From contig JAJYUB010000016.1 of assembly GCA_021792795.1 (NCBI GenBank), positions 1-64,000 of the forward strand: DNA of 64,000 nucleotides. Reading direction: 5' to 3'. Below the pieces are notes generated by a model. That model was given only the letters and a program-made list of their open reading frames with translations, made no database searches and was not told where the DNA came from. The position numbers and the translations under genes were made by a program. Source of the DNA: Acidobacteriota bacterium (lineage in GTDB: Bacteria > Acidobacteriota > Terriglobia > Terriglobales > Acidobacteriaceae). Below, one piece after another: positions 3,451 to 23,966 of this stretch. How positions within the stretch are numbered: the stretch's first letter is position 1; the number at the start of each line of letters is the position of its first letter.

Positions 3451-3471
3451 TGTGTTTTCCTCTAACTCCAA

Positions 3472-6424: not shown

Positions 6425-6431
6425 GAACCGT

Positions 6432-7076: not shown

Positions 7077-7317
7077 CGGCCTCTTCGCTTTGAACTGACC
7101 CGTCCTTAATTCCACAACTACAAAAGCTCGGTAGGCGCTACGCGCGCCTTTCCCCCACTTCGTGCCGCTCCGGTGGGCGGCCCAGCGCATAAAACCGCGC
7201 TGAACGGGCCTCTCCGAGTCTGTTCGGGCCAGCGCCGTCTGCGCGCCAAACGATGGTACGTGTTTGGCACTTGTCGCGCCCACCCTCCAGCCTCCCACCT
7301 CCGCTGCCCTCGTTCTG

Positions 7318-7392
7318 CCTTGGTGTCCGTTTGTCCGGGTTTGTCCGCTGCGCTTTGTGAAGGACAAACCACTCCCAAACGGGACACCAAGG
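7318..7392 (+). promoter_or_regulatory. Large imperfect palindrome just upstream of the ArdC-like gene
   Basis: CCTTGGTGTCC at 7318-7328 pairs with GGACACCAAGG at 7382-7392. Further in, GTTTG pairs with CAAAC and GGTTTGTCC pairs with GGACAAACC. The two arms form a long interrupted stem with a loop of about 15 nt. The right arm runs into the purine-rich ribosome-binding region (AAGGAAGGG) of the gene starting at 7406. It could be an operator or an RNA hairpin controlling translation. Nothing else is recognised in the gap 7077-7405. Confidence 0.5.
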
Positions 7393-7405
7393 AAGGGCAA
7401 AAACA

Positions 7406-8317: not shown

Positions 8318-8399
8318 TCCGCCGCAGTTCTATGGGCGGATGGCCAGCGGCTGTCCGCTCTCCCTATCCACGCACGTTCAACTACAGGAGAAGCGCATC

Positions 8400-9998
8400 A
8401 TGTCTACTCAAAACATCGCAGCTACCGAATACCGCAACCTTCCCCTTTCGATTCTCACTGAATCGAAAACCAACCCGCGTCGCATTTTCGAGGACGCGGC
8501 GCTGAAAGAACTGGCCGACAGTATCCGCAGCCAGGGCGTTCTCTCGCCTTTGCTTGTGCGGCCTTTGAACGAGCGCAGTTTTGAAATCGTTGCAGGAGCA
8601 CGGCGTTACCGCGCCGCGCAGATGGCCGAATCGGAAACCATTCCAGTTCGTATCGTCAATCTCACCGATGCCGAGGCGTTGGAGGCGCAATTGATCGAAA
8701 ACCTGCAACGCCGTGACGTTCACCCACTGGAGGAAGCGCAGGGCTTCCGCGCTTTGCTGAATCTGGAGGAGCCGAAATACAGCATCGAACAAATCGCCGC
8801 AAAAACGGGGAAATCTCCCATGTATTGCGCTCAACGAATCAAGCTGACGGAGCTCGCTCCCGCAGTGGTCGAGGCGTTCTACAAAGATGAGATTGGCGTG
8901 GGCCATGCCCTGCTACTGGCGAAACTGCAACTAGCCGAGCAGGAACAGGCACTTGCCGCTTGCTTCCGCGAGGACTGGGGAAGCGGCAACAAGAACAAAC
9001 GTATCCTGCTGCCCGTTCGCAACCTCAAGGACTGGATTGAGCACAACATCCTGCTCATCCTGAACGACGCGCCATTTTCAAAGAATGACGCAACCCTCAA
9101 CCCGCAAGCTGGCACTTGTTTGGATTGTCCGAAACGGACGGGACATAACAAGCTGCTATTCGCGGACGTGCGGCAGGACGCTTGCACCGACCCCGCTTGC
9201 TACCAGACGAAGGTGGACGCGCACGTTGCGAAAACCATCGCAGCCAAGCCGAAGCTCGTACAAATCTCCGCCGCTTACGGCCAACCAGCCGAAGGCAGCA
9301 CGGTAATTCCGCGCAACAAATATGTCGAGATCAACCAGGAGAAGCCTCAGAACGACAAACAGCGGGATTGGCCGGAGTACAAGACCTGCAAATCGATGAC
9401 CGAGGCCATCATCACGGAAGGCACCGAGAAAGGCGAACTCCGCAAAATCTGTGCCGATCCGAATTGCCCGGTTCACCATCCCAAGAAGCAAAAGCCAACC
9501 GTTGATGCCAATCGGAAGGCCGAGCAGGAGAAGCAGCGCCGCGCGGAAGCGCTGGCCCAAGCAACGGGCTTGCGTGTCCTGAATGCCATCATCGCCGCCG
9601 TTCCAGTGCGATTGATGAAACGCGACCTGCTTTTCATCGTGGAACGGGTTGCAACCATGCTGGACGAACGGCGGTTGGAAGTTGTCGCCCGCAATCGTGG
9701 CATCAAAAAGGCAAAAGAGAGTGATTCAACTCCAAAACTGCTATCTGCCTACATCCGCAAAGCCGACGAAGGCGAACTCGGACGGCTGCTGGTAGAGATG
9801 GTCATTCTTCACACAGCACGGACACAGCCCGATGCTGGCAACATGTTGAAGCAAGCAGCCGAGCATTACAAGGTGGACACCGACGCCATCGCGCTCAAAG
9901 TGAAGCAGGAGTTCACTGCAAAAGCAAAGGCGCAAGCGGCAAAGAAGGTGAATGTGAAAGCGCCATCCAAGCAATCGAAGAAATCGGCCGCTGCTTAA
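8400..9998 (+). CDS. ParB/RepB-family DNA-binding protein
   Basis: A 532-residue protein. The N-terminal ParB domain has the CTP-binding boxes TNPRR, GARRYRAAQ and ENLQRRDVHPLEEAQGF, followed by the helix-turn-helix region around IAAKTGKSPMYCAQRIKL. A middle section has paired cysteines (C240, C243 and a later CTDPAC), which suggests a small zinc-binding insert, and a CPVHHPKK motif. The C-terminus is Lys/Ala-rich. I used the ATG at 8400, with AGGAG upstream, because the longer frame adds an unconvincing 35 residues. No parA gene is adjacent, so its role may be transcription control or element maintenance rather than classical partition. Confidence 0.8.
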   Translation: MSTQNIAATEYRNLPLSILTESKTNPRRIFEDAALKELADSIRSQGVLSPLLVRPLNERSFEIVAGARRYRAAQMAESETIPVRIVNLTDAEALEAQLIENLQRRDVHPLEEAQGFRALLNLEEPKYSIEQIAAKTGKSPMYCAQRIKLTELAPAVVEAFYKDEIGVGHALLLAKLQLAEQEQALAACFREDWGSGNKNKRILLPVRNLKDWIEHNILLILNDAPFSKNDATLNPQAGTCLDCPKRTGHNKLLFADVRQDACTDPACYQTKVDAHVAKTIAAKPKLVQISAAYGQPAEGSTVIPRNKYVEINQEKPQNDKQRDWPEYKTCKSMTEAIITEGTEKGELRKICADPNCPVHHPKKQKPTVDANRKAEQEKQRRAEALAQATGLRVLNAIIAAVPVRLMKRDLLFIVERVATMLDERRLEVVARNRGIKKAKESDSTPKLLSAYIRKADEGELGRLLVEMVILHTARTQPDAGNMLKQAAEHYKVDTDAIALKVKQEFTAKAKAQAAKKVNVKAPSKQSKKSAAA

Positions 9999-10324: not shown

Positions 10325-11974
10325 TTACTCCATCCGCCACGGAGAGCGCTCGGGCCAGTGACGCAGCGCGTCGGTTGCCCAGGCGGTGGACTTGTCAGTG
10401 TGACAGGAAGTACATGGATTGGGAATTTTGTATTTGTCCGTCATGTCCGGGGTAATGAACTTGAACGTATGGGCATGTATAAACGCACCAGGAACTCCTT
10501 CCGTTTCGATCTTCGGCATGTGGCAGGAGACGCACTCGCTTCCCGGAGTGCCCGTCTTATGGTGCGTGTGCTCTTCCAGCGTCGCGGCGCGGGGGCCATT
10601 CGGCGACAGAGGGCCATGGCAGTCCAGACAAATCAAGTTTGCGGGCTTCCTCAATTCCGCATAATTGCTCGTGCCGTGAACATCATGGCAACTGGCGCAG
10701 GTAATTCTGTGCCGGTACATGACACTCTGCGCAAAATCGTTGCCCTGCATTCGGTTCTTGTGCGCTGTGCCGTCCGGGAAATAGTAAAAGGTCTGTTCTC
10801 CCAGTGTGTGATCTTGCAGCTTCCAGAAGTCTTGTAGTTTCAGGCCCACTTGGTAGCCAACCGGCCAGTCGTAATACTCGCCTTGGATCGGATTGATCAA
10901 GGGTTGCCCTTGCGAGTGGCACTGGATGCAGGTATCGTTGGCCGCGACGTAATCCATGCTTGCCGCATTCAGGATGTTGCCGCGAGATGGGTGCGCGACA
11001 TGCTCGCTGCCCGGCCCGTGGCACCGCTCGCAGCCAACATTCCATTCCGCCACTTGTTTGGTTTGGATGTTGTAGCCGACAGAATGGCAGCCGTTGCAGG
11101 TCGGCCCTGTGGGGTGGTCGCTGTTGTGGGGAGGATAGTGCGGCGCCCACCAGTCTTCGCCTTTTTTCACCAGGTAGGGCACCCATTTCTTATGCGCGAT
11201 GTCCCATTTTGCCGGCAACGGATAATACTCATCGCCGACCTGGGTGAAATAGTTCTGCTTCCAGATGCTGCCGTAAACGAATGCGATCTGCTGCGGCTTG
11301 AAATTTACAAAGGAGGGCGCATGGGAGAAATCCGCGAAGATGGCGTGGGGATCTTTGCGCGGATCGCGGACCACATTGGCCATCGGAGTTTTCTTCCAGC
11401 GTTGGTAAATCTGCGCGTGGCACTTTTCACATGATTGAGAGCCAACATAATGCGCCGAGGCGATGATGCTGGACTGTTGGCTTTTTTGTTGGCTCGTCAG
11501 TGGTCTCAGATTTCGGATGTAGAGCGCCAGTTTCCAACTGTTAGTATTTGACTGGCGGTGTGGATTGCCCCAGGCAGGCATTCCGGTGAGTTGGACGCCG
11601 TTTTCAATGATGTAGTGAATTTCCCCATCCGTGAGATTTTGCGTTTCCGGCAGACGCAAATCCGGCACCCGTGGATAGAGATTCAATCCGATTCGGGTCT
11701 TTCCGCTGCCATCGATTCCATGACAAATGGCGCAGCGGGTCACATAGAGTTCCCGCGCATCCTGCAGGGTTTCTGGAGTGGCTTCCAGCGGATTCTTCTG
11801 GTTACGAGCGTGGCGGGGAATCGCCAGATTGCGCACAGTTCGCGCCGCAACTATCTCAAATGCGGAGGGTTCGGTGGTAGCGCGAAAACCACGCCGTATC
11901 AATAGAAGCAAACAGATGGTTCCAACCATTGCAACCGCGAGAAATGTCAGGAGAAATGTCTTCCAGATTTTCAC
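10325..11974 (-). CDS. Nine-haem c-type cytochrome (mono-haem domain fused to multihaem domain)
   Basis: A 549-residue exported protein with an N-terminal signal or anchor helix (residues about 7-27). It has nine CXXCH haem motifs, at C81, C182, C293, C315, C349, C426, C449, C481 and C521. The first sits in a class I cytochrome c-like domain with a likely methionine ligand in TGMPAWG (M132). The other eight form a cytochrome c554/NrfA-like multihaem region. It should act in the periplasm or at the outer surface in electron transfer; the redox partner is unknown. The YncE-type gene ends 18 nt upstream on the same strand, so the two form an operon. Confidence 0.85.
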   Translation of the reverse strand: MKIWKTFLLTFLAVAMVGTICLLLLIRRGFRATTEPSAFEIVAARTVRNLAIPRHARNQKNPLEATPETLQDARELYVTRCAICHGIDGSGKTRIGLNLYPRVPDLRLPETQNLTDGEIHYIIENGVQLTGMPAWGNPHRQSNTNSWKLALYIRNLRPLTSQQKSQQSSIIASAHYVGSQSCEKCHAQIYQRWKKTPMANVVRDPRKDPHAIFADFSHAPSFVNFKPQQIAFVYGSIWKQNYFTQVGDEYYPLPAKWDIAHKKWVPYLVKKGEDWWAPHYPPHNSDHPTGPTCNGCHSVGYNIQTKQVAEWNVGCERCHGPGSEHVAHPSRGNILNAASMDYVAANDTCIQCHSQGQPLINPIQGEYYDWPVGYQVGLKLQDFWKLQDHTLGEQTFYYFPDGTAHKNRMQGNDFAQSVMYRHRITCASCHDVHGTSNYAELRKPANLICLDCHGPLSPNGPRAATLEEHTHHKTGTPGSECVSCHMPKIETEGVPGAFIHAHTFKFITPDMTDKYKIPNPCTSCHTDKSTAWATDALRHWPERSPWRME

Positions 11975-11992: not shown

Positions 11993-13015
11993 TTAGTTCC
12001 GACCAGTTGGCCGCATAATTCTCAACAAAGGATGTCCATCGATATTTTCAAGAGGAAAGTAGACGAGATGCGTCTGCGGATCGACGGCAACGGTGTGCGC
12101 ATGGGGCATATTGAACGATCCGAGGAGGGCCAGTTTCCTGCGGCCATATTGGAAGATCGTCACTGTGCCGGACTCAGCGGAGACATACAGCCGTTTCAGG
12201 CCCGGATCGAAGGCCAGCACGTCGGGATCGTCCCCCACCTCATACGTAGAAAGCACCTTCATCGCGTTCAAATCAACCACGGCAAGCGAATGGTTTTCCT
12301 CGCCGGCGGCGAAGGCCACATGGTCCGCCACATCGAGGGCAATTCCGTGCGGGTTCTCAATTCCGGGAAGTGTGTATCTGCCCAGGATTTTGTTGGTCGC
12401 CGGGTCGATGACGACGAGTTGGTTTACACCACGCACCGCCACTAGGATGTGCCCGGATACGGAATCGTAAACGGTGTTCCCCGCGCCGCCACCGAGAGGA
12501 ATCTTGGTGAGAAGACTGTTGCGGGTTGCGTCGATGACCGCGTCCACTCCGCCATGCTCGTCGGAAACAAATACCTTCTTTTCCCTGGGAGCGTAGGCGA
12601 GACCGTCGGGGTAATCGATCGGCCCTGCTTTGCCCACAATCTTGAGTGTCTGGGTGTCGACCGCGATGACCTGGTGGTCGCCTGTCGCCGATGCGAATAG
12701 GCGATGAACTTCTGGAGCGGCGAACACTCCATGCACCCGTTTGAAACCGTCGAGATTGGCGACTACCTCTCTTTTCGTAGTGTCGAAAACGACAAGCTGA
12801 TCGGCGTTCATGTGGGCGATATAGAGCCGGCCATTCACCGCATCGAAACTTTGATAATCGAACCGGACCGCCGGTCCGGGCATCGGCACATCGGCAACCA
12901 TGGTCAGCACGTTATTGGCAGGCTCTGCGGGCTGCGCGAGAGCCAGAAGAGGAGTCAGCGCCAACGATGCGGTCATGCAGCGTGCGAGGATATTGGAGTT
13001 TCGACAATTCGTCAT
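11993..13015 (-). CDS. Exported YncE-type beta-propeller protein
   Basis: A 340-residue protein with a signal peptide (MTASLALTPLLALAQP segment) and at least six repeats of the YVTN/YncE kind, such as NGRLYIAHMNADQLVVFDT and GHILVAVRGVNQLVVIDPAT. These form a seven-bladed propeller in known members. Such proteins are periplasmic or extracellular, and their ligands are mostly unknown. I preferred the ATG at 13015 (GGGA upstream) to the ATG at 13045. It is the first gene of the operon with the nine-haem cytochrome, so it may be a partner or substrate-binding protein of that electron-transfer system; that is inference. Confidence 0.75.
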   Translation of the reverse strand: MTNCRNSNILARCMTASLALTPLLALAQPAEPANNVLTMVADVPMPGPAVRFDYQSFDAVNGRLYIAHMNADQLVVFDTTKREVVANLDGFKRVHGVFAAPEVHRLFASATGDHQVIAVDTQTLKIVGKAGPIDYPDGLAYAPREKKVFVSDEHGGVDAVIDATRNSLLTKIPLGGGAGNTVYDSVSGHILVAVRGVNQLVVIDPATNKILGRYTLPGIENPHGIALDVADHVAFAAGEENHSLAVVDLNAMKVLSTYEVGDDPDVLAFDPGLKRLYVSAESGTVTIFQYGRRKLALLGSFNMPHAHTVAVDPQTHLVYFPLENIDGHPLLRIMRPTGRN

Positions 13016-13206
13016 TCGTAGACCATCCCATGCCTCATGCGGCAACTTTCGGATACTTGTTATTGAGCCTCAACCGTCCCGTGTCTGATTAAAGACTTCT
13101 TTGCCGTGGAAATATATACTTCCAGCAAAACCTCTAAAACATCGCCGCCCGAAACCGTGGGCGGGAATAAAGGCACCCGCCCCGGCTCGGTCTTGGTTCA
13201 AAAAAG

Positions 13207-13578
13207 CTATTGACAACTCGTGCTGATCATCTTGAGACTCATCACCTGTACGTCGGCATATTCGCCGCCGCCCTCTTCTGCTCTTTCTCCTTCCTCGTCC
13301 TCACCGGGCGCCCGAGTGATTTTGCCAATCACAGTTACCTCGTGGCCCAGGTGCTCGGCTAATTTGACTTTCGCGCTCTTCACCCCGTATTTCTTGCCGT
13401 TCTGAGTGATGGCGAATTCGTTTGCAGACTCACCCTTCGCCAGGCAACCGGTTATTGTTACTGTTTTTCCCTTTCCTTCTTGCGACCTGTTCGATTGACT
13501 CCAGGCCACAAACGTAATTGGCGTCAGACTGAGGATGGCTACCACCGCCAGCAGATGCCGAATAATATTTGTCTTCAT
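13207..13578 (-). CDS. Small exported hypothetical protein
   Basis: A 123-residue protein with a signal peptide (HLLAVVAILSLTPITFVAWSQ). The core has a pattern common in small acidobacterial exported proteins: VTITGCLAKGESANEF, then GKKYGV, then LGHEVTVIGKI. It resembles a short OB-like beta barrel. Acidic and Gly-rich residues (GEDEEGERAEEGGGEY) follow. Function unknown. It is transcribed away from the two-component system, with 232 bp of shared upstream DNA. Confidence 0.55.
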   Translation of the reverse strand: MKTNIIRHLLAVVAILSLTPITFVAWSQSNRSQEGKGKTVTITGCLAKGESANEFAITQNGKKYGVKSAKVKLAEHLGHEVTVIGKITRAPGEDEEGERAEEGGGEYADVQVMSLKMISTSCQ

Positions 13579-13630
13579 CTTCCACCTCCATTGAGTGATG
13601 ATCGAATGACCATTTCACTCCGTAATTTGT

Positions 13631-13645
13631 GTGGCATTTTGCCAC
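13631..13645 (+). promoter_or_regulatory. Perfect short inverted repeat in the divergent promoter region
   Basis: GTGGCA, three T, TGCCAC: a perfect 6-bp inverted repeat between the small exported protein (minus) and the response regulator (plus). It may be an operator or the top of a small hairpin. There is no independent evidence of function. Confidence 0.3.
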
Positions 13646-13703
13646 GCAAGCCTTACGCCTGCCTTACCGTCTTTGTTTATAGTCGCAATTACCAGAGCCG
13701 ATT

Positions 13704-13752
13704 CTGAAGATGTCCTGAATATCTCCTTACTTCGCCGTAAGGATATCTTCAG
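13704..13752 (+). promoter_or_regulatory. Candidate response-regulator binding repeats
   Basis: Two adjacent 11-bp direct repeats, CTGAAGATGTC (13704-13714) and CTGAATATCTC (13715-13725), lie about 90 bp before the response-regulator start. A third copy occurs in inverted orientation as GATATCTTCAG (13742-13752). An inverted pair, CCTTAC and GTAAGG, sits between them. Tandem sites with a helical-turn spacing are typical of OmpR-family regulators, so autoregulation is likely. Confidence 0.45.
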
Positions 13753-13810
13753 CAAGAATTCAGAGCACTTCAGTGCGAAGCGTCTGTATACCAGAAGGAG
13801 GACACAGACC

Positions 13811-14494
13811 ATGCAGATTCTCGTGATCGAAGACGAACCGAAAGTCGGCCACGCCGTGCAGGAAGGCTTGCAGGCTGAGGGCTACGAAGTCGTCCTTGCC
13901 GGGACCGGAGAGGAAGGATTCTTTCTCGCCAGCAGCCGCGCGTTTGATTTGATCGTGCTGGACATTATGCTGCCAGGCCGCGATGGATTGGAGGTGCTGG
14001 CGGCGCTTCGCAGGCAGAATTCGGGTGCCCAGGTCCTGATCCTCACCGCGAAAGACGCGATCGAAGATCGTGTCGCAGGATTGGATACAGGAGCGGACGA
14101 CTACCTGGTCAAGCCATTTGCATTCCCGGAATTGAGTGCGCGGATTCGCGCTCTCCTGCGCAGAGGCAAATCGGAGCCGGCGATCCCACTCAAGATTGGC
14201 GACCTGGAGATCGACCCTGTAACGAGAGCGGTGGTGCGTAAGGGTACACGTTTGGATCTCACCGTGCGGGAGTTTGAACTGCTGGAATATCTCGCACGAA
14301 ACCATCGGAGAGTCGTTTCGCGTGAAATGCTGGCGCGCGATGTATGGAAGGAGCCTGGGAGAGCCACTCCGCTGGACAACGTGATCGATGTGCATGTGGC
14401 GCGTCTCCGGAAGAAACTGGACGACCCGTTTGCAGGCAAGCTGTTGCATACCGTCCGCGGAGTCGGATTCATCTTGAGCGAGGAAATTCCATGA
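13811..14494 (+). CDS. OmpR-family response regulator
   Basis: A 227-residue two-component regulator. The receiver domain has the acidic pocket E7-D8, the phosphorylated Asp D51 (LDIMLPGRDG), T79 and K101 (YLVKPF). The C-terminal winged-helix DNA-binding domain runs from about residue 125 to the end (LTVREFELLEYLARN, VDVHVARLRKKLDDP-type region). The start at 13811 follows a strong AGGAGG; a longer frame to 13631 lacks these signals. Its stop overlaps the histidine-kinase start by 4 nt (ATGA), giving a coupled pair. Confidence 0.92.
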   Translation: MQILVIEDEPKVGHAVQEGLQAEGYEVVLAGTGEEGFFLASSRAFDLIVLDIMLPGRDGLEVLAALRRQNSGAQVLILTAKDAIEDRVAGLDTGADDYLVKPFAFPELSARIRALLRRGKSEPAIPLKIGDLEIDPVTRAVVRKGTRLDLTVREFELLEYLARNHRRVVSREMLARDVWKEPGRATPLDNVIDVHVARLRKKLDDPFAGKLLHTVRGVGFILSEEIP

Positions 14495-15918
14495 GCAGAT
14501 TTGCCGGGAGAACTCTTAGGCTCCGATTGACCATTCTCTATGGAGCCTTGCTTGCGTTGGCACTTGCGCTCTATGCGGCGGGAACCTCTCTTTATCTCCT
14601 GCACGATTTAAGAAAACAACAAGACGCAAGCCTGGATCGTGAGATTGAAACGGTGGAAGGCCTCATCGACCTTTCTCCAGATGGAAGAGTTGAACTTCGT
14701 TCGGAGGAAGGAGAAGCGCGCGAAGGAGGGCCCGAACGCGGATATCTGTTGGAGATCTGGACTGCCAGCGGTAAGCCAATGTATCTGAGCGAAGGACTGA
14801 AGGGTAATTCCTTGGGACCGGCTCCAGATGCGGCACAGAAGCCTTTTGACATGTCTCCGCATACCTACCGATTGCGTAATGGGGCGAGAGTGCGGGCGGC
14901 GGCACGTCGGCATGGGATTGAAGGTCGTGTTCTTCTGCTTCGGCTTGCCGTCAGCGAGGAGCCGCTGTGGGACGAGTTCTGGGACATGGTATCGGTGCTG
15001 GCACTTGGCCTTCCGATCATGGTGTTGCTGATTGGTTTTTCCGGATATGCCCTTGCTGGACACGCCCTTCAACCTGTGGACCAGATGGCGCAGCGTGCCA
15101 GGAAGATCAGCGCGGAACGCCTCAACGAACGTCTGACCATACAGAATCCCGGCGACGAGCTGGGGCATCTTGGACACGCCTTCAACGAGACGCTGGCGCG
15201 TCTGGAGAAATCTTTCGAGCAACTCCGCCGCTTTACTGCGGATGCCTCCCATGAACTGCGTACTCCACTGACGGCGATTCGCAGCGTAGGCGAGGTCGCA
15301 CTGCAGAACACGGGAGATGCGGCCTATTACCGGGACATTATCGGCAGCATGTTGGAAGAGGTGAACCGTCTCACCCGCCTGGTGGAAAGCCTGCTGACGA
15401 TGTCAAGGGCCGACGCGGGGCAGATTCAACTGCAACGCACCTCGGTGGGAGTTCTCGATCTGGCCAAGGAAGCGGCGGCATTGCTCGAAGTGCTGGCTGA
15501 GGAGAAACATCAAACGATTGTCGTGGACGGAGATCCATCTCTCGCGGTACGCGCTGACCGGCTCATCCTGCGTCAGGCATTGATCAATCTCATCGACAAC
15601 GCGGTGAAGTATTCCCCATCCGGCGGAGAGATTGAAGTGCGTATCGGGGCACTGGGAAAAGATGTCCTGATCGAAGTGCGGGACAGTGGTCCGGGCATTT
15701 CAGCGGAGCACGCGGAGAAAGTTTTTCAGCGTTTTTACCGGATCGATAAGGCGCGCACGCGCGCCGAAGGCGGTACAGGTCTTGGCCTGTCTATCGTGGA
15801 GTGGGCCGTGTCCGCCAATGGAGGCAGCGTAGAACTAAATCGCGGATCTGGTCCCGGCTGCACATTCACCATACGCCTTCCCTTACACACGATGGAAAGC
15901 ACTGCGCAAAACGCATGA
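14491..15918 (+). CDS. Sensor histidine kinase (HAMP type)
   Basis: A 475-residue inner-membrane kinase. It has two membrane helices (about residues 12-35 and 165-190) around a periplasmic sensor region, then a HAMP linker, a phosphoacceptor His (H254, in ASHELRTPL) and an HATPase domain with LINLIDNAVKYSP, DSGPGIS and GGTGLGLSIVEW. It belongs with the preceding response regulator. Its stop codon overlaps by 4 nt (ATGA) the ATG of the DUF5916 protein that follows, which is unusual and suggests the kinase and that outer-membrane protein are made together. Confidence 0.92.
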   Translation: MSRFAGRTLRLRLTILYGALLALALALYAAGTSLYLLHDLRKQQDASLDREIETVEGLIDLSPDGRVELRSEEGEAREGGPERGYLLEIWTASGKPMYLSEGLKGNSLGPAPDAAQKPFDMSPHTYRLRNGARVRAAARRHGIEGRVLLLRLAVSEEPLWDEFWDMVSVLALGLPIMVLLIGFSGYALAGHALQPVDQMAQRARKISAERLNERLTIQNPGDELGHLGHAFNETLARLEKSFEQLRRFTADASHELRTPLTAIRSVGEVALQNTGDAAYYRDIIGSMLEEVNRLTRLVESLLTMSRADAGQIQLQRTSVGVLDLAKEAAALLEVLAEEKHQTIVVDGDPSLAVRADRLILRQALINLIDNAVKYSPSGGEIEVRIGALGKDVLIEVRDSGPGISAEHAEKVFQRFYRIDKARTRAEGGTGLGLSIVEWAVSANGGSVELNRGSGPGCTFTIRLPLHTMESTAQNA

Positions 15919-18314
15919 ACTTCGTCCGTGCCGGGAAGATCAAGAAAGGGATGGTAGCCTTTTGCCGGATCGCCTGGATCGCGAGAACATTTGCCTATAT
16001 CCCAGACGAGTGTAGCCCTATATCCCCGCCAAATGCCAGCCACGAGAAACGAGCGCTCACTTACCTGCGTGAGTTAAGACGCTCCCTTTTGCTGATATCC
16101 ACAATCATTGTGATTTTGCAGTTGGTATCGTTTTCATGTGCTGGACAACTCATTTCGAATAACCAGCGTGTTTCCGTACCGCGCGTTGTGACCGCTGTAA
16201 GGGCCACCACTCCGCCTCACCTAAATGGACACCTTGACCAGACATGGTCTCATGCGGCGATCATCACTCATTTCCGGCAGCAATTTCCACATGAAGGAAC
16301 AACACCGACACAACGTACAGTGGTCAAGATTCTGTATGACAGCCAAAACCTGTACATAGGCGTTCATTGCTTCGATTCTTCTCCCAAGAAAATCGTAGCG
16401 ACGGAGCTTCAGCGGGATGGAACTTTCAACACCGATGATTACGTTTCGTTCCTGATCTCTCCGAACAACGATGGACAAAGTGGATACATTTTCACCGTCA
16501 ATCCCTTGGGAACACAGTTCGACTCCTACATTTCGGAAGAGGGCGTATTGCTCGACCCGAATTGGGACGGAATTTGGCGCTCCGATGCTCACATTACGTC
16601 TGATGGATGGACGGCGACCCTCGCAATCCCGTTCGCAACCATGAATTTTAAGACATCTCCCGATGCGACCATTGGATTCAACGTGCTTCGGTTTATCCGT
16701 AGGAACAATGAAAAGGACTTGTGGCAGAGTTGGAGAATTATTTATGGGCTGTATCGCATTTCAGAGGCAGGAGAAATAGGTGGGCTTAAACATATAGGAA
16801 ACGGCCGTTTGATTCTACTCCAACCATTTGCGTTGGGTGGATTCATCACCAACCCCAATGGCAACATACCGGGGCAAAGTGCTACAGGCAACACCAATCA
16901 AAATGACATTCAATCTCAAAATAGTGCTGGTTTTAATTTCATGTACGGAATTCGTAGTGATCTGGTTGCGAACCTGACGGTGAATCCGGACTTCTCCAAT
17001 GCGGAGGTTGACCAGCAATATGTCAATACGACCCCATTTCCCGAAGCGCTGCCGGAAACCAGACCCTTCTTTCTGGAAAATGAAGGCATCTTCCAGTTCG
17101 GCAATCTAGACAGAAGAGATACGAGCCAACTGTTTTACAGTCGCGCCATTGGTATTGACCCGGTCACAGGGTTGCAGGTTCCGGTCAACGTTGGCGGCAA
17201 AGTTACAGGGGCTCTCGGCTCGTTCGATCTCGGCGTGCTGGACGTGCGCACGGGCCAGACAAGCTTTGCGAAACCTACCAATTATTCGATTGGAAGATTG
17301 AAATGGAGGACACTCTCCGAGAGTTATCTTGGTGCAATCTTTACTAACAAAGATAGCAGCGACCAGTCCGACCCTTATAACCGCGCCTTCGGCGGGGACG
17401 CCAACTTTATCCTCTGGAAAGAACTCACTCTCAATGGCTACTGGGCCAAATCGCAATCCTCTCAGAACACTCTGAAACATAAGGATTCAGCATATTCGAC
17501 AAATATGGACTTTACCAACAACTGGATGCGATTTCTTCTCGAACGCTCCCGCGTGGATGCCAACTTTAATCCGGAAGTTGGGTTTGTGAATCGGACCGAT
17601 CTGATTACCGATTATGCGAAGCTGGAATTTACTCCGCGTCCTAAGTCGGGTCCTGTCCGCGAATACAACTTCCAGGGATGGATATATTACCAACCCAGCA
17701 CCGAAGGTGTGTTGCAAACGCAGGAATGGCAAACCACATTCCGTATTTTGTTCCAGAACGGGTCTTATACGGACGATGATCTTTTCGATAACTTCATCCA
17801 GTATCTTTCTCAGCCATTCAACATTTTTAAGAATGTAAATATACCGGCGGGTGTGTACCACTATGATCGGCACCAGTTCACCTTCGGCTCAAATCAAGAC
17901 AAGAAGTTCGTGTATCGATTGTTTGAGCGATTCGGAACTTACTACGACGGTTCTATGAATGAAACGCGCGTTCATGGCATCTGGCATCCGACCGAACATA
18001 TTTTTACCGACGACTCTGAGACATGGGACCGTTTCAAGCTCCCTACGGGCCTCTATAACGTGTTCGTGGCTTCTTATCAGGGGGGCTACTCGTTCAACCG
18101 ATTCATTACTATGTCGGCTCTGGTGCAGCAGAATTCAGTCCAGCAAAATCCATGGAGCACGAATCTACGCTTTCAATACGAATATCGCCCGGACAGCTTT
18201 TTGTACGTGATCTACAACCAGGGAAGCCAATTTATTAGCACCCAGGCAGGCAACCCAAACCTGCCATCACAGAACATTTTTACGGTAAAGCTCACATATT
18301 CATTCTTGCGTTGA
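15915..18314 (+). CDS. DUF5916 outer-membrane protein, copy 1
   Basis: A 799-residue exported protein. After about 75 residues with a signal-like helix (LLLISTIIVILQLVSFSCAGQL) comes a CBM9-like domain (about residues 87-280: PPHLNGHLDQTW, DGWTATLAIPFATMNF). The rest is a DUF5916 beta-barrel-like domain (ETRPFFLENEGIFQFG, VGFVNRTD) ending in a terminal phenylalanine-containing strand, FTVKLTYSFLR, typical of outer-membrane barrels. The family is usually linked to carbohydrate or peptide handling, but its function is not established. The start ATG overlaps the kinase stop. The next gene is a close paralogue. Base composition and codon use look less GC-rich than in the neighbours. Confidence 0.8.
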   Translation: MNFVRAGKIKKGMVAFCRIAWIARTFAYIPDECSPISPPNASHEKRALTYLRELRRSLLLISTIIVILQLVSFSCAGQLISNNQRVSVPRVVTAVRATTPPHLNGHLDQTWSHAAIITHFRQQFPHEGTTPTQRTVVKILYDSQNLYIGVHCFDSSPKKIVATELQRDGTFNTDDYVSFLISPNNDGQSGYIFTVNPLGTQFDSYISEEGVLLDPNWDGIWRSDAHITSDGWTATLAIPFATMNFKTSPDATIGFNVLRFIRRNNEKDLWQSWRIIYGLYRISEAGEIGGLKHIGNGRLILLQPFALGGFITNPNGNIPGQSATGNTNQNDIQSQNSAGFNFMYGIRSDLVANLTVNPDFSNAEVDQQYVNTTPFPEALPETRPFFLENEGIFQFGNLDRRDTSQLFYSRAIGIDPVTGLQVPVNVGGKVTGALGSFDLGVLDVRTGQTSFAKPTNYSIGRLKWRTLSESYLGAIFTNKDSSDQSDPYNRAFGGDANFILWKELTLNGYWAKSQSSQNTLKHKDSAYSTNMDFTNNWMRFLLERSRVDANFNPEVGFVNRTDLITDYAKLEFTPRPKSGPVREYNFQGWIYYQPSTEGVLQTQEWQTTFRILFQNGSYTDDDLFDNFIQYLSQPFNIFKNVNIPAGVYHYDRHQFTFGSNQDKKFVYRLFERFGTYYDGSMNETRVHGIWHPTEHIFTDDSETWDRFKLPTGLYNVFVASYQGGYSFNRFITMSALVQQNSVQQNPWSTNLRFQYEYRPDSFLYVIYNQGSQFISTQAGNPNLPSQNIFTVKLTYSFLR

Positions 18315-18328
18315 GTGAGGTGCGCCTT

Positions 18329-20863
18329 ATGGATAAGCATCTACACACACGGCGTGCCAGACCAGAAATACTACACCCTTGTCCGCCCCCAGGGCTCGCG
18401 TCGATTGTCAGCCTTTCACAACATCGGCGACTGGGGAAGAAGCCTCACAACAGCAGACACGGTCCAGCCTACGCCAATCTGGATATGAACCTCTCGCCCA
18501 TATTCTTGCTTGCCACTCTGCGAATGAACGGAAAACGAATTTACGCCCTAACCTCAATGACTGCTTGTCTGAATGCGTTGATGAAAGCCGCGTGTTGCCG
18601 CGATAGGGGAGCGCTTGCTTGGGTGCATCAGATCAGGTGTGTCTTCTGGGTGATAACAGCAGCAACGCTACTTCTGCAATGCTTCTCAACTTCATGCGCA
18701 GGGCAACTTGTTTCGAGCAAAACTTTCGTTTCAGCGCCGCGCGTTGTGACCGCTGTAAGGGCTGCCACTCCGCCTCATCTCAAGGGATACCTTGACCAGA
18801 CATGGTCCGATGCGGCACTCATCACGACTCTGCGGCAGCAGTATCCCCATGAAGGAACTCAGCCGACGCAACGCACAGAGGTCAGGATTCTCTATGACAG
18901 CAAAAATCTGTACCTGGGCGTTCATTGCTTCGATTCCTCGCCCAAGAAAATCGTAGCGACGGAGCTTCAGCGGGATGGGACTTTCAAAACCGATGATTAC
19001 GTTTCCTTCCTGATCTCTCCGAACAACGATGGCCAAAGTGGATATATTTTCACCATCAATCCCTTGGGAACACAGTTCGACTCCTACATTTCGGAGGAGG
19101 GCGTGTTGCTCGACCCGAATTGGAACGGGATTTGGCACTCGGATGCCCACATTACGTCCGATGGATGGACAGCAACGCTCGCAATCCCATTCGCCACCAT
19201 GAATTTTAAGGCATCTCCCGATGCGACCATTGGATTCAACGTGCTTCGGTTTATCCGTAGAAACAACGAAAAGGACTTGTGGCAGAGTTGGCGAATCATT
19301 TATGGGCTGTATCGCATTTCAGAGGCAGGAGAAATAGGCGGGCTTAAACATATAGGAAACGGGCGTTTGATTTTACTTCAGCCATTTGCGCTGGGCGGAT
19401 TCATTACCAACCCCAGCGGCAACATACCAGCTTCAAGTCCCACAAGCAGCACCAAGCAAAATAACATCGAACCCAACAACAGCGCTGGGTTCAATTTCAA
19501 ATATGGGATTCGTAGCAATCTGGTAGCAAACTTAACAGTGAATCCGGATTTTTCGGACGCGGAGGTTGACCCGCAGCTTATCAATACAACCCCGTTTCCC
19601 GAAGCACTGCCGGAAACCAGGCCTTTCTTTCTGGAAAATGAGGGCATTTTTCAGTTCGGCACCCAGGACACAAGCCAACTGTTTTACAGTCGCGCCATCG
19701 GCATCGATCCGGTGACGGGGTTACAGATCCCTGTCAACGTAGGGGTCAAGGTCACGGGTGCTCTGGGTGCGTTCGATCTCGGCGTGCTGGACGCACGAAC
19801 TGGACAGACAAGTTTTGCAAAACCAACCAACTATGCCGTTGGCCGCCTCAAGTATAGATTGCTTTCCGAAAGTTATCTTGGCGCAATCTTCACCGAAAAG
19901 GACAGCAGCGACAAGTCCGACCCTTATAACCGCGCATTCGGCGGCGACGCCAACTTTATCCTCTGGAAAGAGCTCACCCTGAATGGCTATTGGGCCAAAT
20001 CACAGTCCTCCCAAGCCACCCTGAAGCATGACGACGCAGCATATTCGGAAAACGTAAACTTTACCAACGACTGGATGCAACTGCAACTGGAGCGTTCCCG
20101 CGTGGATGCGAACTTCAACCCAGAGGTCGGATTTGTGAACCGGACTGACCTGGTCACCGATCTAGCGGACTTGGAATTTATCCGGCGTCCTAAGTCGGGA
20201 CCTGTCCGTGAATACGATTGGGAAGCATTCATCAACTACCAGCCAAGCACGGAAGGTGTGCTACAGACCCAGGAGTGGCAGACCACATTTCGTATCGTTT
20301 TCCAGAACGGCGCTTACACGGATGATGACCTTTTCGACAACTTCATCCAATATCTCCCCCAACCCTTCAACCTTTTCAAAAATGTTTACATACCGGCGGG
20401 GGTGTATCACTATGATCGGCACCAGCTCACCTTCGGATCGAATCAGGACAAAAAGTTTGTCTATCGACTGTTCGAGCGGTTTGGCAGCTACTACAATGGC
20501 TCACTGAATGAGGCGCGCGCGCATGGCATCTGGCATCCGAACGCGCATATATTTACCGACAACTCAGAGACATGGGACCGCTTCAATCTCCCTACAGGTC
20601 TGTACAACGTTTTCGTCGCCTCGTATCAGGGAGGCTACTCGTTCAACCGGTTTGTCACCATGTCTGCCCTCGTGCAGCAGAATTCTATCCAGCAGTACCC
20701 CTGGAGCACGAATCTGCGGCTCCAATACGAATATCGTCCAGACAGCTTTCTCTACGTGATCTACAACCAGGGCAGCCAATTCAATAGTATCGAGGCTGGA
20801 AATCCAAACCTGCCGTCACAGAAGACCTTCACGGTAAAACTTACATATTCATTCTTGCGTTGA
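18329..20863 (+). CDS. DUF5916 outer-membrane protein, copy 2 (tandem paralogue)
   Basis: 844 residues, with the same layout as copy 1: signal region ending in FSTSCAGQL, CBM9-like domain, DUF5916 barrel and the same C-terminal FTVKLTYSFLR. Large blocks are identical to copy 1, and the main differences are in the N-terminal 130 residues and scattered surface positions. I used the ATG at 18329, which follows GAGGTG; the frame also has ATGs at 18485 and later, so the true start is uncertain. It begins 14 nt after copy 1 and is probably co-transcribed. A recent duplication is clear. Confidence 0.8.
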   Translation: MDKHLHTRRARPEILHPCPPPGLASIVSLSQHRRLGKKPHNSRHGPAYANLDMNLSPIFLLATLRMNGKRIYALTSMTACLNALMKAACCRDRGALAWVHQIRCVFWVITAATLLLQCFSTSCAGQLVSSKTFVSAPRVVTAVRAATPPHLKGYLDQTWSDAALITTLRQQYPHEGTQPTQRTEVRILYDSKNLYLGVHCFDSSPKKIVATELQRDGTFKTDDYVSFLISPNNDGQSGYIFTINPLGTQFDSYISEEGVLLDPNWNGIWHSDAHITSDGWTATLAIPFATMNFKASPDATIGFNVLRFIRRNNEKDLWQSWRIIYGLYRISEAGEIGGLKHIGNGRLILLQPFALGGFITNPSGNIPASSPTSSTKQNNIEPNNSAGFNFKYGIRSNLVANLTVNPDFSDAEVDPQLINTTPFPEALPETRPFFLENEGIFQFGTQDTSQLFYSRAIGIDPVTGLQIPVNVGVKVTGALGAFDLGVLDARTGQTSFAKPTNYAVGRLKYRLLSESYLGAIFTEKDSSDKSDPYNRAFGGDANFILWKELTLNGYWAKSQSSQATLKHDDAAYSENVNFTNDWMQLQLERSRVDANFNPEVGFVNRTDLVTDLADLEFIRRPKSGPVREYDWEAFINYQPSTEGVLQTQEWQTTFRIVFQNGAYTDDDLFDNFIQYLPQPFNLFKNVYIPAGVYHYDRHQLTFGSNQDKKFVYRLFERFGSYYNGSLNEARAHGIWHPNAHIFTDNSETWDRFNLPTGLYNVFVASYQGGYSFNRFVTMSALVQQNSIQQYPWSTNLRLQYEYRPDSFLYVIYNQGSQFNSIEAGNPNLPSQKTFTVKLTYSFLR

Positions 20864-20921
20864 GTAAAAGCGAACTGAAGGAAAATCGGCTACAAGTATT
20901 GTGTTTCCAGAAGGACGCCAC

Positions 20922-20952
20922 ATCTCTTTTCTACTACGCCGGAAAAGGAGAT
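20922..20952 (+). terminator. Possible bidirectional terminator between convergent genes
   Basis: ATCTCTTTTC and GGAAAAGGAGAT are near-complementary arms with one bulge, in the 120 bp between the end of DUF5916 copy 2 (plus) and the end of the LysR gene (minus). A run of U follows only weakly. Confidence 0.3.
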
Positions 20953-20984
20953 ATGCCTGAAAGCTGGTATCAGAGTTCAATTAC

Positions 20985-21920
20985 TTAGCCAATCGGCAAT
21001 TGCAATTGCGCCGGTGGCTTTTGCTCCTCAATCCGCTTCATAAACGTGCGGACAAATTCGCTGACAAGCCGCGATTCATTGCTGACTAAAGTTGCCAAAT
21101 GTATTTCGAGATAGAGGTGTTCGTCCAATAGAGGTATACGGATGAGACCATCACGCACAACTCGGTCAGCCCCAGCGGGCGTGAACCAGGCGAGCAGAGC
21201 GTCGTCTGTCAGCAACGCGGCGGCTTGGTCGGACTGGCTGACTTGGTGAACGATATTTGGTTTCAGTCGTTCAATTTCCATTCGCTGCAAAATCAGATCG
21301 TGAAGCGGAGGATGTACGTGGCGATTGAAGAACACCCAGGGATATTTCGCTACTTCATTCAACCTGACAACGCTCTTCGCAGCGAGTGGATGTCTGGAGC
21401 GAACCATGATTATGAAGGGCTCAGTCGCCACTCGCACGCTTGTTATGGACGCGCTCGGAGGCGGTGAGGTGATCAAAGCAAGGTCAACTTGATGATGTTG
21501 CAACTGCTGGAGAATCTCGCATGAATATGCTGTGGTGATTTCGCGAGAGAGATTACGATACAGGCGCAACTCAGTGGAATGGAGCAGTTCTATCAGGTGC
21601 GGAGATAAGAACGCGGATGCACCTATCCTCAGCTTGTGATGCTCGCCATATTTTGCTTCTTGTGCGTCATGAACGCCTTGATAGTACGACTGAATGCTTA
21701 TTTGCACCCGTTCCACGAAGAATCGTCCGGAGGTGGTGATTACCGTGCCGCCAGCGCCTCTAGTGAATAGTTTTGCTTTTACACGTCGCTCTATCGTTCG
21801 CAGTCGTTTACTGAAGGCTGGTTCAGTGATGCCGACTCGCTCTGCTGCTTGCGTCAAGTTGCCCTCTTCGTGTAGGGCGACAACCAATTCGAGGTCCCGA
21901 ATTTTGATGTGCCCCGACAT
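20985..21920 (-). CDS. LysR-family transcriptional regulator
   Basis: A 311-residue LTTR. The N-terminal winged helix-turn-helix (ELVVALHEEGNLTQAAERVGI, TEPAFSKRLRTIERRV) is followed by the substrate-binding domain (KLRIGASAFLSP onward). I used the ATG at 21920 before GHIKIRDLELV; the longer frame adds nine residues. It lies next to the excisionase/integrase pair but points the other way, and its target could be the DUF5916 genes or a chromosomal locus. The inducer is unknown. Confidence 0.85.
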   Translation of the reverse strand: MSGHIKIRDLELVVALHEEGNLTQAAERVGITEPAFSKRLRTIERRVKAKLFTRGAGGTVITTSGRFFVERVQISIQSYYQGVHDAQEAKYGEHHKLRIGASAFLSPHLIELLHSTELRLYRNLSREITTAYSCEILQQLQHHQVDLALITSPPPSASITSVRVATEPFIIMVRSRHPLAAKSVVRLNEVAKYPWVFFNRHVHPPLHDLILQRMEIERLKPNIVHQVSQSDQAAALLTDDALLAWFTPAGADRVVRDGLIRIPLLDEHLYLEIHLATLVSNESRLVSEFVRTFMKRIEEQKPPAQLQLPIG

Positions 21921-22244
21921 CGCCCATGCACCTCTGCAATTTCCCACTCCTGTGCATATTTAAGCTGAACAGCCGACTATTCCGGCAATCTATTGATGAG
22001 TGATACAGGAATTGGTACGGGGACACAAGATGCCCAAAGTCTGTTTTGTTTACATCATTTTCAACTTAGCCCCCTAAAGTTTTGCTGTAATTTGCCGAGC
22101 GAACATGGCGCGTCCGCAAATCCAAAAGGTTATGGCCAAATTCCAAAAGGTTATTGGACTGGAATATGGCTCCTGATGCAGGGTTAGGAGCAATGAGCGC
22201 GGGGGAACATTTGGCGCTCTGCGTCATTTATCGGAGGTCAGAGC
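21921..22244. other. Intergenic region between lysR and excisionase, with repeats
   Basis: The 324 bp hold no gene. The notable content is the pair of TCCAAAAGGTTAT repeats described separately. A GGAGG-type site (CGGAGGTCAGAGC) lies just before the excisionase start at 22245. Confidence 0.4.
22121..22154 (+). repeat. Two 13-bp direct repeats 21 bp apart upstream of excisionase
   Basis: TCCAAAAGGTTAT occurs at 22121-22133 and again at 22142-22154. The 21-bp period is two DNA turns, so two proteins could bind on one face. The location, about 90 bp upstream of the excisionase gene, fits arm-type integrase or excisionase sites, or an operator. Confidence 0.5.
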
Positions 22245-22490
22245 ATGAGCCCGATACCTGCACCCAGTGAAGAGAAATCCGCATCATCCAAACGCCCACC
22301 ATCCCGCTATGCCGACGCTCCTGAGCGCCTGATCGACAGCGAGGAGGCAGCAGCCATCATCGGCATTCATCCGAAAACGCTCCAGAAGATGGCACGCCGG
22401 GGACAGATTCGCGGTGTGCATGTGGGCAAACTGTGGCGCTTTCGCGCCTCAACGATTGAAGAATGGATTGCACGCGAACTTGCGAGCTGA
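22245..22490 (+). CDS. Excisionase-type helix-turn-helix protein
   Basis: An 81-residue protein with a MerR-like HTH_17/excisionase domain in residues 28-75: LIDSEEAAAIIGIHPKTLQKM, then RGQIRGVHVGKLWRFR and WIAREL. Such proteins direct excision of integrated elements or serve as small regulators. The integrase gene begins 103 nt downstream on the same strand, the classic xis-int order. The first 25 residues are Pro/Ser-rich and probably disordered. Confidence 0.75.
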   Translation: MSPIPAPSEEKSASSKRPPSRYADAPERLIDSEEAAAIIGIHPKTLQKMARRGQIRGVHVGKLWRFRASTIEEWIARELAS

Positions 22491-22593
22491 ATCTGCCCAC
22501 TTTTTGCACCGTAAATCCTTTGGTGACGTATGGCTGTTTGGACTAGGCTGAATGTAAGGCCAACCGTGCTCGCCAACGGAAAAGGAGAAGTAT

Positions 22594-23814
22594 ATGAGGC
22601 GTGCACGACACCAAAAAGGAAGTTTGCAGCGAGTCAAGCGTCAGTCCGGCGAAGCAGTTTGGATCTTTCGCTGGTATGAAGTGCAACTCGACGGGACCAA
22701 ACGCTACCGCAAGGCGGTGATCGGATCGGTGCAGGAATACAAGACTGAAGCCGAAGCGCAGAAAGCAGCGGATACGTTGCGGTTGGAAATCAACGAACAA
22801 ACCCCGCGACAACAGTTGCAGGCGATCAGTATGGAAACGCTGGTCGAACATTACCGGCAGCATGAACTGCCGGACATTGTCCACGGCACGCGGCCCTTGG
22901 GCAGCCAGGCCGTGGAAGATGAGACACGAAAGGCCTTTTCGACACAGGCGACGTATGCAGGCTATCTGCGCAAATGGATTCTTCCACGCTGGCGATCGTA
23001 CAGACTCGCCGACGTGAAAGCAGTCCAGGTTGAACAGTGGCTCAAGTCGTTGCCGGTTGCCCGAGGAACGAAGGCCAAGATACGGAACATTATGAGTGCT
23101 CTTTACAGTCACGCACAGCGCTGGGAATGGACCACAGCCAATCCCATAACGCATGTGCGCCAGAGCGCCAAACGTTCCCGTGTTCCAACAGTACTCACGC
23201 CTGTCGAACTGCAAGACTTTCTGGCTAATCTGGCAGACCCGGCCAAGACGGCGGTGTTGTTAGGTGCGTTGACGGGCTTGCGTGTCGGAGAACTGTTGGG
23301 CCTCAAATGGTCGGACATCGATTTCGAGAAGTTGGAAATCTGTGTCGTCCGGGATGTGGTCAAACAGCGGATTGAGCGCTGCAAGACGGAAGCATCGAAA
23401 AAAGCGATTCCGATAGATGCGGAATTGGCAGAAACGCTGTGGTCCTGGCGGCTTCGCTGCGCTTACAACCAGCCGGAGGATTGGGTTTTCGCCAGTCCTC
23501 AAACGAAAGGGAAGCAACCGTATTGGCCAAGCTCGCTCTATCGGGTTGCTTTGCAGCCGGCCCTCAAGGCTGCGGGCATTACGGAACCAGTGGGCTGGCA
23601 CACGCTGCGGCATACTTTCGGAACCCTGATGAAAGCCAACGGCGAAGACGTGAAGACGATTCAGGAACTTCTCCGCCATGCCAACTTCAAGGTGACGATG
23701 GATGTGTACACGCAGGCGGTCACGGATGTGAAGCGCACGGCGCACAGCCGGGTGGCACGGCAAATCATGGGACCAATTGCGGAGAAAGACGAAGAGGAAA
23801 AGGACGATGAGTAA
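22594..23814 (+). CDS. Tyrosine recombinase / integrase
   Basis: 406 residues. The N-terminal arm-binding and core-binding regions (residues about 1-190) are followed by the catalytic domain. Catalytic residues are R230 (TGLRVGELLGLKW), H336 and R339 (HTLRH), H362 (LLRHANF) and the nucleophile Y372 (MDVYTQAV). A beta-hairpin lysine is likely near K264-K270. All key residues are present, so it should be active. The gene ends 75 bp from the 3' end of tRNA-Glu, the usual position for an integrase that uses the tRNA as attachment site. Confidence 0.93.
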   Translation: MRRARHQKGSLQRVKRQSGEAVWIFRWYEVQLDGTKRYRKAVIGSVQEYKTEAEAQKAADTLRLEINEQTPRQQLQAISMETLVEHYRQHELPDIVHGTRPLGSQAVEDETRKAFSTQATYAGYLRKWILPRWRSYRLADVKAVQVEQWLKSLPVARGTKAKIRNIMSALYSHAQRWEWTTANPITHVRQSAKRSRVPTVLTPVELQDFLANLADPAKTAVLLGALTGLRVGELLGLKWSDIDFEKLEICVVRDVVKQRIERCKTEASKKAIPIDAELAETLWSWRLRCAYNQPEDWVFASPQTKGKQPYWPSSLYRVALQPALKAAGITEPVGWHTLRHTFGTLMKANGEDVKTIQELLRHANFKVTMDVYTQAVTDVKRTAHSRVARQIMGPIAEKDEEEKDDE

Positions 23815-23888
23815 GAGCGGGTTTTCCTTATCGAACCCTTTCAAACCCTCGGGTTTTGGCTCGATTTTCGCTAACTTGTTTGTTTTGT

Positions 23889-23914
23889 TGGCGTCCCCGA
23901 CGGGATTTGAACCC
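23889..23914. other. Probable attachment core inside the tRNA-Glu 3' end
   Basis: The T-arm and acceptor part of the tRNA-Glu gene face the integrase. Elements of this type normally recombine within such a tRNA 3' end and leave a direct repeat at the other end of the element. No second copy was found by eye in the window, so the far end is probably to the left of position 1, or degraded. Confidence 0.4.
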
Positions 23915-23966
23915 GTGTTATCGCCGTGAAAGGGCGGTGTCCTAGGCCGGGCTAGACGACGGGGAC
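23889..23966 (-). tRNA. tRNA-Glu (anticodon TTC)
   Basis: Read on the minus strand, the gene begins GTCCCCG (acceptor), with a D-arm containing TCGTCTAG, the anticodon loop CTTTCAC (TTC) and a T-arm around GGGTTCAAATCCC. It closes with CGGGGAC, discriminator G and an encoded CCA (23889-23891). The anticodon stem reads CCGCC against GGCGA, so the outer 27-43 pair is C-A rather than the C-G of E. coli tRNA-Glu. Confidence 0.93.

Follow-up and report, generated by a model that had tools for sequence, protein, structure and literature searches.

The window analysed here is a stretch of 64,000 nucleotides from a soil bacterium of the Acidobacteriota (contig JAJYUB010000016.1, positions 1 to 64,000), and the subject is a two-component system that is followed by two genes encoding predicted outer-membrane proteins of the DUF5916 family (DUF5916-1 and DUF5916-2). 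All four genes are transcribed in the same direction. The original prediction, made from the sequence, placed a regulator, a kinase, and two DUF5916/CBM9 genes next to each other, and this is borne out by the open reading frames (ORFs) and by Pfam (Table 1). Against TIGR01387 (heavy-metal regulator) the regulator scores 243.8 bits, about 35 under the cut-off of 279.2, and this is still its best NCBIfam model, while the kinase scores 292.5 bits against TIGR01386 (heavy-metal sensor kinase), 0.05 under the cut-off of 292.55. Both DUF5916 proteins score above the gathering cut-offs of PF19313 (22.6) and PF06452 (23.4), DUF5916-1 with 48.3 and 27.2 bits and DUF5916-2 with 54.6 and 25.4 bits.

Table 1. 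Genes, remnants and sequence elements of the locus. G002 is a genome of the same genus.
Feature	Position	Strand	Remark
OmpR-type response regulator	13811..14494	+	Nearest NCBIfam model TIGR01387
Sensor histidine kinase, HAMP-HisKA-HATPase	14491..15918	+	Best model TIGR01386
ATGA stop/start overlap of regulator and kinase	14491..14494	+	Kept in relatives
ATGA at the kinase stop	15915..15918	+	Incidental; also in relatives without DUF5916 there
DUF5916 gene 1, CBM9-like domain and predicted large barrel	15915..18314	+	Start uncertain: ATG 15915 or ATG 15951
Remnant, 3' coding region of an Oar-type barrel gene	18442..18535 (94 bases)	+	77% nucleotide identity to G002
DUF5916 gene 2, CBM9, 84% identical copy	18581..20863	+	Start ATG 18581 assumed
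Operator-like direct repeat TTCAG-N6-TTCAG	13748..13763	+	Ends 48 bases before the regulator start
TATA after the operator-like repeat	13787-13790		
Mirrored TTCAG-N6-TTCAG	13704..13719	-	Faces the divergent genes
Small secreted-type protein	13207..13578	-	Without Pfam or NCBIfam match
YncE/ChrK/ChrZ-type beta-propeller	11993..13045	-	
Nonahaem c-type cytochrome, nine CXXCH	10325..11974	-	

The two-component system and its paired boxes

The kinase is present in 22 of 398 genomes of the family at an E-value of 1e-95 or better. Ten loci with kinases at least 57% identical to that of the window, the window itself excluded, form the close set, and 13 loci with kinases of 42-46% identity serve as controls. 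G002 has two kinase copies with 90% and 88% identity to the window kinase, and G072, which belongs to another genus, has one with 82%. The gene set around the kinase is largely common to the window, G002, and G072, while the gene after the kinase differs.

About 61-67 bases before the regulator lies a direct repeat, TTCAG-N6-TTCAG, that matches at 10 of 10 bases in 10 of 12 promoters, the one in the window included, and at 9/10 (G244) and 8/10 (G368) bases in the remaining two. The count of 12 leaves out G131, and it does not include L098 and L104, where the kinases are 34-35% identical and the box matches at 5/10 and 8/10 bases. Six of the eight loci that have a divergent gene carry a mirrored box, which matches at 9-10 bases out of 10 and is located at -106 to -108; the other two display a 7/10 match at -104 (G244) and an 8/10 match out of register (G368). 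No mirrored box in register is present in the four loci for which a divergent gene is not known, G174 having a 9/10 match at -84. Three of these four, G174, G028, and L116, have a co-oriented upstream ORF, L116 also an antisense ORF, and in the fourth, L101, only 246 bases of contig precede the regulator.

The two boxes are the sole exact matches in the 64-kb window. When it comes to the 398 genomes of the family, the exact box together with TATA is found at eight sites in seven genomes, all of them just before this regulator, and the reversed-box control gives no site in the same genomes. The controls for scoring the promoter boxes were shuffled by single bases, not by dinucleotides. The layout of the boxes fits a regulator that would control its own operon as well as the divergent arm of propeller and cytochrome, the binding being predicted from the boxes themselves. 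An operator with a single conserved target makes this regulon directly testable. A search of the plus strand from 13400 to 21100 for sigma-70-type promoters found none; it gave fewer matches than shuffled sequences and is thus uninformative.

The propeller of the divergent arm is found in eight of the ten close kinase loci as opposed to none of the 13 with kinases of 42-46% identity (Fisher p 9e-5), and a multihaem cytochrome in the window and in five of the ten. Outside the host, the small protein encoded at 13207-13578 has among the loci examined a sole relative (35%), near a propeller in L104. The host contig C89 (L226 1335-4578) carries a second regulator-kinase pair that is followed by a frame-broken propeller gene, and the host's only other exact match to CTTCAGNAANNNTTCAG is located just before this gene, without TATA.

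Gene fossils and the kinase-DUF5916 junction

Oar-type proteins (CarboxypepD_reg and OMP_b-brl_4) hold the position after the kinase in nine of the ten close loci, six as Oar orthologues (at least 52% identity) and three as distant Oar-type proteins (25-27%). The tenth has DUF5916/Oar fossils, and an intact DUF5916 gene follows the kinase in none of the ten. The Oar-type proteins belong to another Pfam family than DUF5916, and in the window only the 94-base remnant was found. This remnant lies between both DUF5916 genes, and its translation matches 29 Oar residues near the C-terminus (62%, E 1.6e-6). In the second G002 copy the kinase is followed by an intact Oar gene (865 amino acids) and then by 55 bases that match the 5' part of DUF5916-2 at 80%. 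In G072 an Oar-like start, recognised by eye, comes after the kinase, and then the C-terminal 53 residues of DUF5916, 89% identical. The simplest history starts from the order regulator-kinase-Oar-DUF5916; the window would then have lost Oar, the second G002 copy DUF5916, and G072 almost all of the two genes. The outer-membrane partner, of the Oar type or DUF5916, is exchanged between loci, and the fossils show that both were formerly present. Compared with the G002 kinase that is partnered by Oar, the window kinase has 88% identity in its sensor region and 85-100% in its other parts; the sensor domain is, on this comparison, hardly altered when the outer-membrane partner changes.

The original prediction took ATGA overlaps at both junctions as signs of coupling. 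Both overlaps exist, and that of regulator and kinase is kept, as the start of the kinase overlaps the stop of the regulator in 13 of 13 loci (12 ATGA, one GTGA). The overlap of kinase and DUF5916 gene, which was expected to be conserved, is absent from all 12 kinase relatives, and as far as this overlap goes the prediction has largely failed. Nor does a window-related kinase overlap a DUF5916 gene in any of 80 loci of DUF5916 relatives, many of which have short flanks. The ATGA as such is present at the kinase stop in five of the 12 relatives, and it is a gene start in only one of them (L116), where the product is a PF06439-type protein and not DUF5916.

The kinase ends AACGCATGA in both the first G002 copy and G072, neither of which has a DUF5916 gene at that spot. 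The ATG in AACGCATGA opens only 57 (G002) and 72 (G072) codons, in no gene's frame, and in G002 the start of Oar is located 40 bases further on and in a different frame from this ATG. In the second G002 copy the kinase stop comes earlier, and AAACGCATGA is nevertheless retained. Translational coupling of the kinase and DUF5916-1 via the ATGA is thus rejected on the basis of the relatives, and the motif at this junction is, by the same comparison, an incidental leftover of a deletion. Homology to the G002 kinase-Oar spacer extends 23 bases past the kinase stop of the window and then breaks, and the first codons of DUF5916-1, when read from ATG 15915, are therefore old spacer. With this start, some 55 residues precede the hydrophobic signal segment of the protein. 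ATG 15915 may still be in use today, and if so, by an accident peculiar to this genome. An ATGA overlap seen in one genome can, in other words, be a deletion scar.

In G023 (contig 249, L067 3-3148) a piece of the kinase (residues 64-240) is joined directly to the second half of a DUF5916 gene, and next come ChrB and an ORF that resembles a transporter (of the MFS type, by eye); this is either a deletion or an assembly join.

The two DUF5916 genes of the window differ by 0.87 synonymous (dS) and 0.077 nonsynonymous (dN) substitutions per site, and the resulting dN/dS of 0.088 together with the dS value shows, on the substitution rates, a duplication that is not recent and that has been under purifying selection. 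A stretch of about 600 bases early in the genes (16300-16900 vs 18850-19450) has a nucleotide identity of 0.90-0.93, while it is 0.78-0.83 elsewhere, as a partial gene conversion would give.

A structure model of DUF5916-2 (mean predicted local distance difference test score, pLDDT, 86.8) displays a CBM9-like domain and a large barrel. The CBM9-like domain matches 7nwn with a Z-score of 21.1 and 2.4 Å over 176 residues. The barrel modelled alone has a pLDDT of 88.3 and 24 strands by our own count from the listing, and its fold matches are tied between PirA (Z 16.7), Fiu (16.1), and MtrB (16.0). Pfam searches at E 0.001 found no plug or TonB receptor domain in DUF5916-1 or DUF5916-2, only DUF5916 and CBM9_1. 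The model supports a putative outer-membrane channel and no particular substrate. A haem in the CBM9-like domain was considered from a match to the ethylbenzene dehydrogenase chain 2ivf_C (Z 14.9), and was rejected as CXXCH occurs in 0 of 68 DUF5916 rows; no histidine of DUF5916-2 is common to at least 70% of these rows, which also counts against it.

DUF5916 and the chromate-resistance neighbourhood

DUF5916 relatives are found in 36 of 61 related genomes. The neighbourhoods of 80 out of 169 relatives were compared, mostly from Acidobacteriota by record title and with some from Gemmatimonadetes and others; since many of these loci are short or truncated at the end of a contig, absences there are weak. 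Neighbours were found by neighbour clustering and by queries from plasmid pMOL28, and representatives were verified by Pfam. The 80 loci contain ChrB in 18 cases, ChrA in 14, ChrF in 17, DUF1259 in 22, an MFS gene in 11, and a propeller in 24. At least one of ChrB, ChrA, ChrF, and DUF1259 is present in 31 of them, compared with one of 20 control loci of DUF5916 paralogues (p 0.003), and this single control locus carries DUF1259. The paralogue controls come from the same family (18), the same order (one), and the same class (one). None of ChrA, ChrB, ChrF, and DUF1259 is found in the 13 kinase control loci, and with both controls pooled against the 80 loci p is 5e-5. The control loci are longer on average (18.5 vs 14.4 kb), which works against the observed difference. 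Loci with Chr genes make up 23 of the 48 with a DUF5916 protein about 40% or more identical to the query, and 8 of the 32 below that.

A regulator related to that of the window lies near DUF5916 in five of the 80 loci. In L116 a regulator, a kinase, a PF06439 protein, ChrB, DUF1259, ChrA, a propeller, and DUF5916 are encoded in one direction, with the same box at -67. In G244 (L224) the genes for Oar, kinase, and regulator are divergent from a row of propellers, an outer-membrane factor, RND, HlyD, ChrB, DUF1259, and ChrA, and past ChrA there is another DUF1259-like gene and a remnant of a cytochrome. In Acidobacteriaceae bacterium KBS 83 (L094) a cytochrome, ChrB, and a propeller share the locus with DUF5916. 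In three Gemmatimonadetes loci (L164, L166, and L167) DUF5916 (about 30% identity) is directly followed by an MFS gene, and DUF1259 is also in the locus.

Matches to the window propeller occur in 197 plasmid records, and some of the best are to Arthrobacter FB24, Arthrobacter Chr15, and C. metallidurans pMOL28. The propeller is 45% identical to chrK of FB24 and 42% identical to the pMOL28 gene (chrZ), and in both FB24 and pMOL28 the propeller is found in one stretch with chrB, chrA, and DUF1259 genes.

The library searched contains no paper with the word 'DUF5916', and the link of DUF5916 to chromate-resistance clusters came up in none of the literature searches, which combined DUF5916, DUF1259, or YncE with chromate and two-component systems. 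DUF5916 lying beside ChrA, ChrB, DUF1259, and ChrK/ChrZ genes gives the family a first testable function, and the repeated Chr neighbourhood suggests an outer-membrane component of chromate/oxyanion resistance in Gram-negative cells.

To the left of the locus, at 355-9998, the window encodes an RND pump, an adaptor-like protein, an outer-membrane factor, a cation-efflux protein, ArdC-N, and ParB. To the right, at 20985-23966, there is a LysR gene and then a tyrosine integrase next to tRNA-Glu; a second copy of the tRNA-Glu end was not found within the window beyond a 13-base chance match. An integrase related to that of the window abuts a 3' piece of tRNA-Glu in G002 (L065 2980-4277), where a 71-base match of 92% includes the piece, and it adjoins a cytochrome-propeller-regulator-kinase-Oar module. 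The G+C content is 0.50 in the DUF5916 stretch against 0.53-0.59 in the other stretches measured; the regulator-kinase stretch has 0.566.

A candidate envelope-stress module and its rivals

On balance it is somewhat probable that a heavy-metal-type (CusS/CopS-like) two-component system, carried on an integrative metal-resistance island, answers periplasmic metal/oxyanion (chromate-type) stress here. The best reading of the locus is an envelope-stress module for metals/oxyanions (chromate-type), here in a mobile and reduced variant. The kinase would sense the stress through its periplasmic loop, and the phosphorylated regulator would bind the paired boxes and switch on its own operon, with transcription presumably reading through into DUF5916-1 and DUF5916-2. 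The same regulator would also switch on the divergent arm of propeller and cytochrome. The DUF5916 proteins would then be stress-induced outer-membrane channels that complete an envelope route for exported or detoxified species, and the barrels would be output and not sensor.

Several observations weigh against this reading. DUF5916-1 and DUF5916-2 have no TTCAG box of their own, and the low G+C content of their stretch is what a later or foreign addition would show. No Chr gene is present in the fetched stretch of 49 of the 80 DUF5916 relatives, and only two of the ten close kinase loci (L177 and L224) have such genes nearby. Genomes with a close kinase show no clear enrichment of ChrB_C (3/10 vs 59/388 genomes, p 0.19). 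In G032 (L074 7593-11382) a DUF5916 paralogue (29%) lies divergent to a regulator-kinase pair; efflux-type genes follow and Chr genes are missing, and the pairing with a two-component system is thus not special to chromate clusters. The host genome, which is 98% complete, gave no match to ChrA (PF02417), for which 9 of 14 control genomes were positive, nor to DUF1259/ChrL/ChrY (PF07485), with one of 14 controls positive. ChrB_C (PF09828) was likewise not found in the host; here the 14 control genomes were also silent, while the same search was positive for 62 of 398 genomes. The host thus seems unable to run ChrA-type efflux, and since ChrA, ChrB_C, and DUF1259 were not found, chromate export is not the role of this particular copy on its own. 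It is likely that the host copy serves a wider metal/oxyanion or redox stress, or that its loss is in progress.

The original prediction saw the barrels as a sensing-uptake unit that captures or imports a ligand and presents it to the kinase. DUF5916 does adjoin the kinase in the same orientation, and its CBM9-like domain has a carbohydrate-module fold (Z 21.1 to 7nwn), but in none of the ten close loci is the kinase followed by an intact DUF5916 gene, a kinase partnered with Oar has a sensor domain 88% identical to the one here, and the overlap is incidental, which together make ligand presentation highly improbable. The proposed sensing of sugars or peptides is not supported either, as the neighbours point to metal/oxyanion (chromate-type) stress instead. 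The proposed link between sensor pair and outer-membrane proteins is as such supported, by the shared orientation and the recurrent neighbourhood. It is unlikely, though not far-fetched, that DUF5916-1 and DUF5916-2 are unrelated cargo, placed on a mobile island by deletion and duplication and not controlled by the kinase. Their lower G+C content, the fossil Oar between the copies, and an intact kinase-DUF5916 junction in 0 of 12 kinase relatives would agree with this. The fossils of G002 and G072, however, put DUF5916 downstream of kinase-Oar already in relatives, regulator-kinase and DUF5916 are clustered together in L101 and L116, and both copies are under purifying selection.

Two further alternatives give the barrel another partner. 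In E. coli yncD and yncE are neighbours, and in an uptake unit of this kind the barrel would import a cofactor or a metal chelate assisted by the propeller. Many loci indeed have a YncE-like propeller close to a barrel, either TonB-type (Oar) or DUF5916, and YncD (6v81) is among the TonB-dependent transporters that match the barrel model, in a tie with others. We nevertheless regard such uptake as improbable, as DUF5916-1 and DUF5916-2 lack a plug or TonB-receptor domain at E 0.001, and as the YncE equivalog model (cut-off 400) gives the window propeller only 55 bits, whereas propellers adjacent to chr genes match it at 42-45% identity. The least probable explanation is a porin-cytochrome conduit of the MtrB kind, where the barrel would sheathe the nonahaem cytochrome and chromate or metals would be reduced outside the cell. 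While the barrel aligns over its whole length to 6r2q_B (Z 16.0, root mean square deviation 3.9, 377 residues) and the cytochrome is encoded in the divergent arm, the MtrB score is tied with those of siderophore receptors, an ORF with at least four CXXCH is found in only two of the 80 DUF5916 loci, and the cytochrome is also present in Oar loci without an intact DUF5916 gene.

The envelope-stress reading can be extended, more tentatively and with less than even confidence, to Acidobacteriota and partly Gemmatimonadota in general. Chromate/oxyanion resistance in these bacteria would possess an undescribed outer-membrane arm consisting of a DUF5916/Oar barrel and a ChrK/ChrZ propeller. In some lineages this arm might be under a dedicated two-component system with TTCAG-N6-TTCAG boxes as its own operator. 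The module would be mobile on tRNA-Glu islands, with an exchangeable barrel, and in the present host it would persist without ChrA.

When it comes to known systems, the CusS/CopS/SilS-type heavy-metal two-component systems (TIGR01386/TIGR01387) provide the best NCBIfam models for both window proteins; the window pair differs in scoring below both cut-offs and in having a propeller and a barrel as partners. The determinant on plasmid 3 of Arthrobacter sp. FB24 (chrA, chrB, chrK, and chrL, a DUF1259 gene; PMC2751784) has its propeller family in common with the window. In FB24 chrK is reported to encode a YVTN/WD40 propeller, and deleting chrJ, chrK, and chrL to lower chromate resistance (PMC2751784). 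ChrA, ChrB, and DUF1259 genes are found near many DUF5916 relatives, while none of the three was found in the window host and the 15 kb of FB24 examined have no two-component system. An outer-membrane barrel is not to be expected in FB24, because it is a Gram-positive Actinomycete. For the C. metallidurans pMOL28 determinant (chrI B1 A1 C E F1 ... chrP, chrY, chrZ; PMC2864759), an incomplete gene table of 19 kb lists neither a DUF5916/Oar barrel nor a two-component system. Five downstream genes, chrO, chrN, chrP, chrY, and chrZ, are reported to be chromate-induced, with no data given there (PMC2864759). In this determinant MFS (chrP), DUF1259, and propeller genes lie in a row, and the same set of three is also found near DUF5916 relatives.

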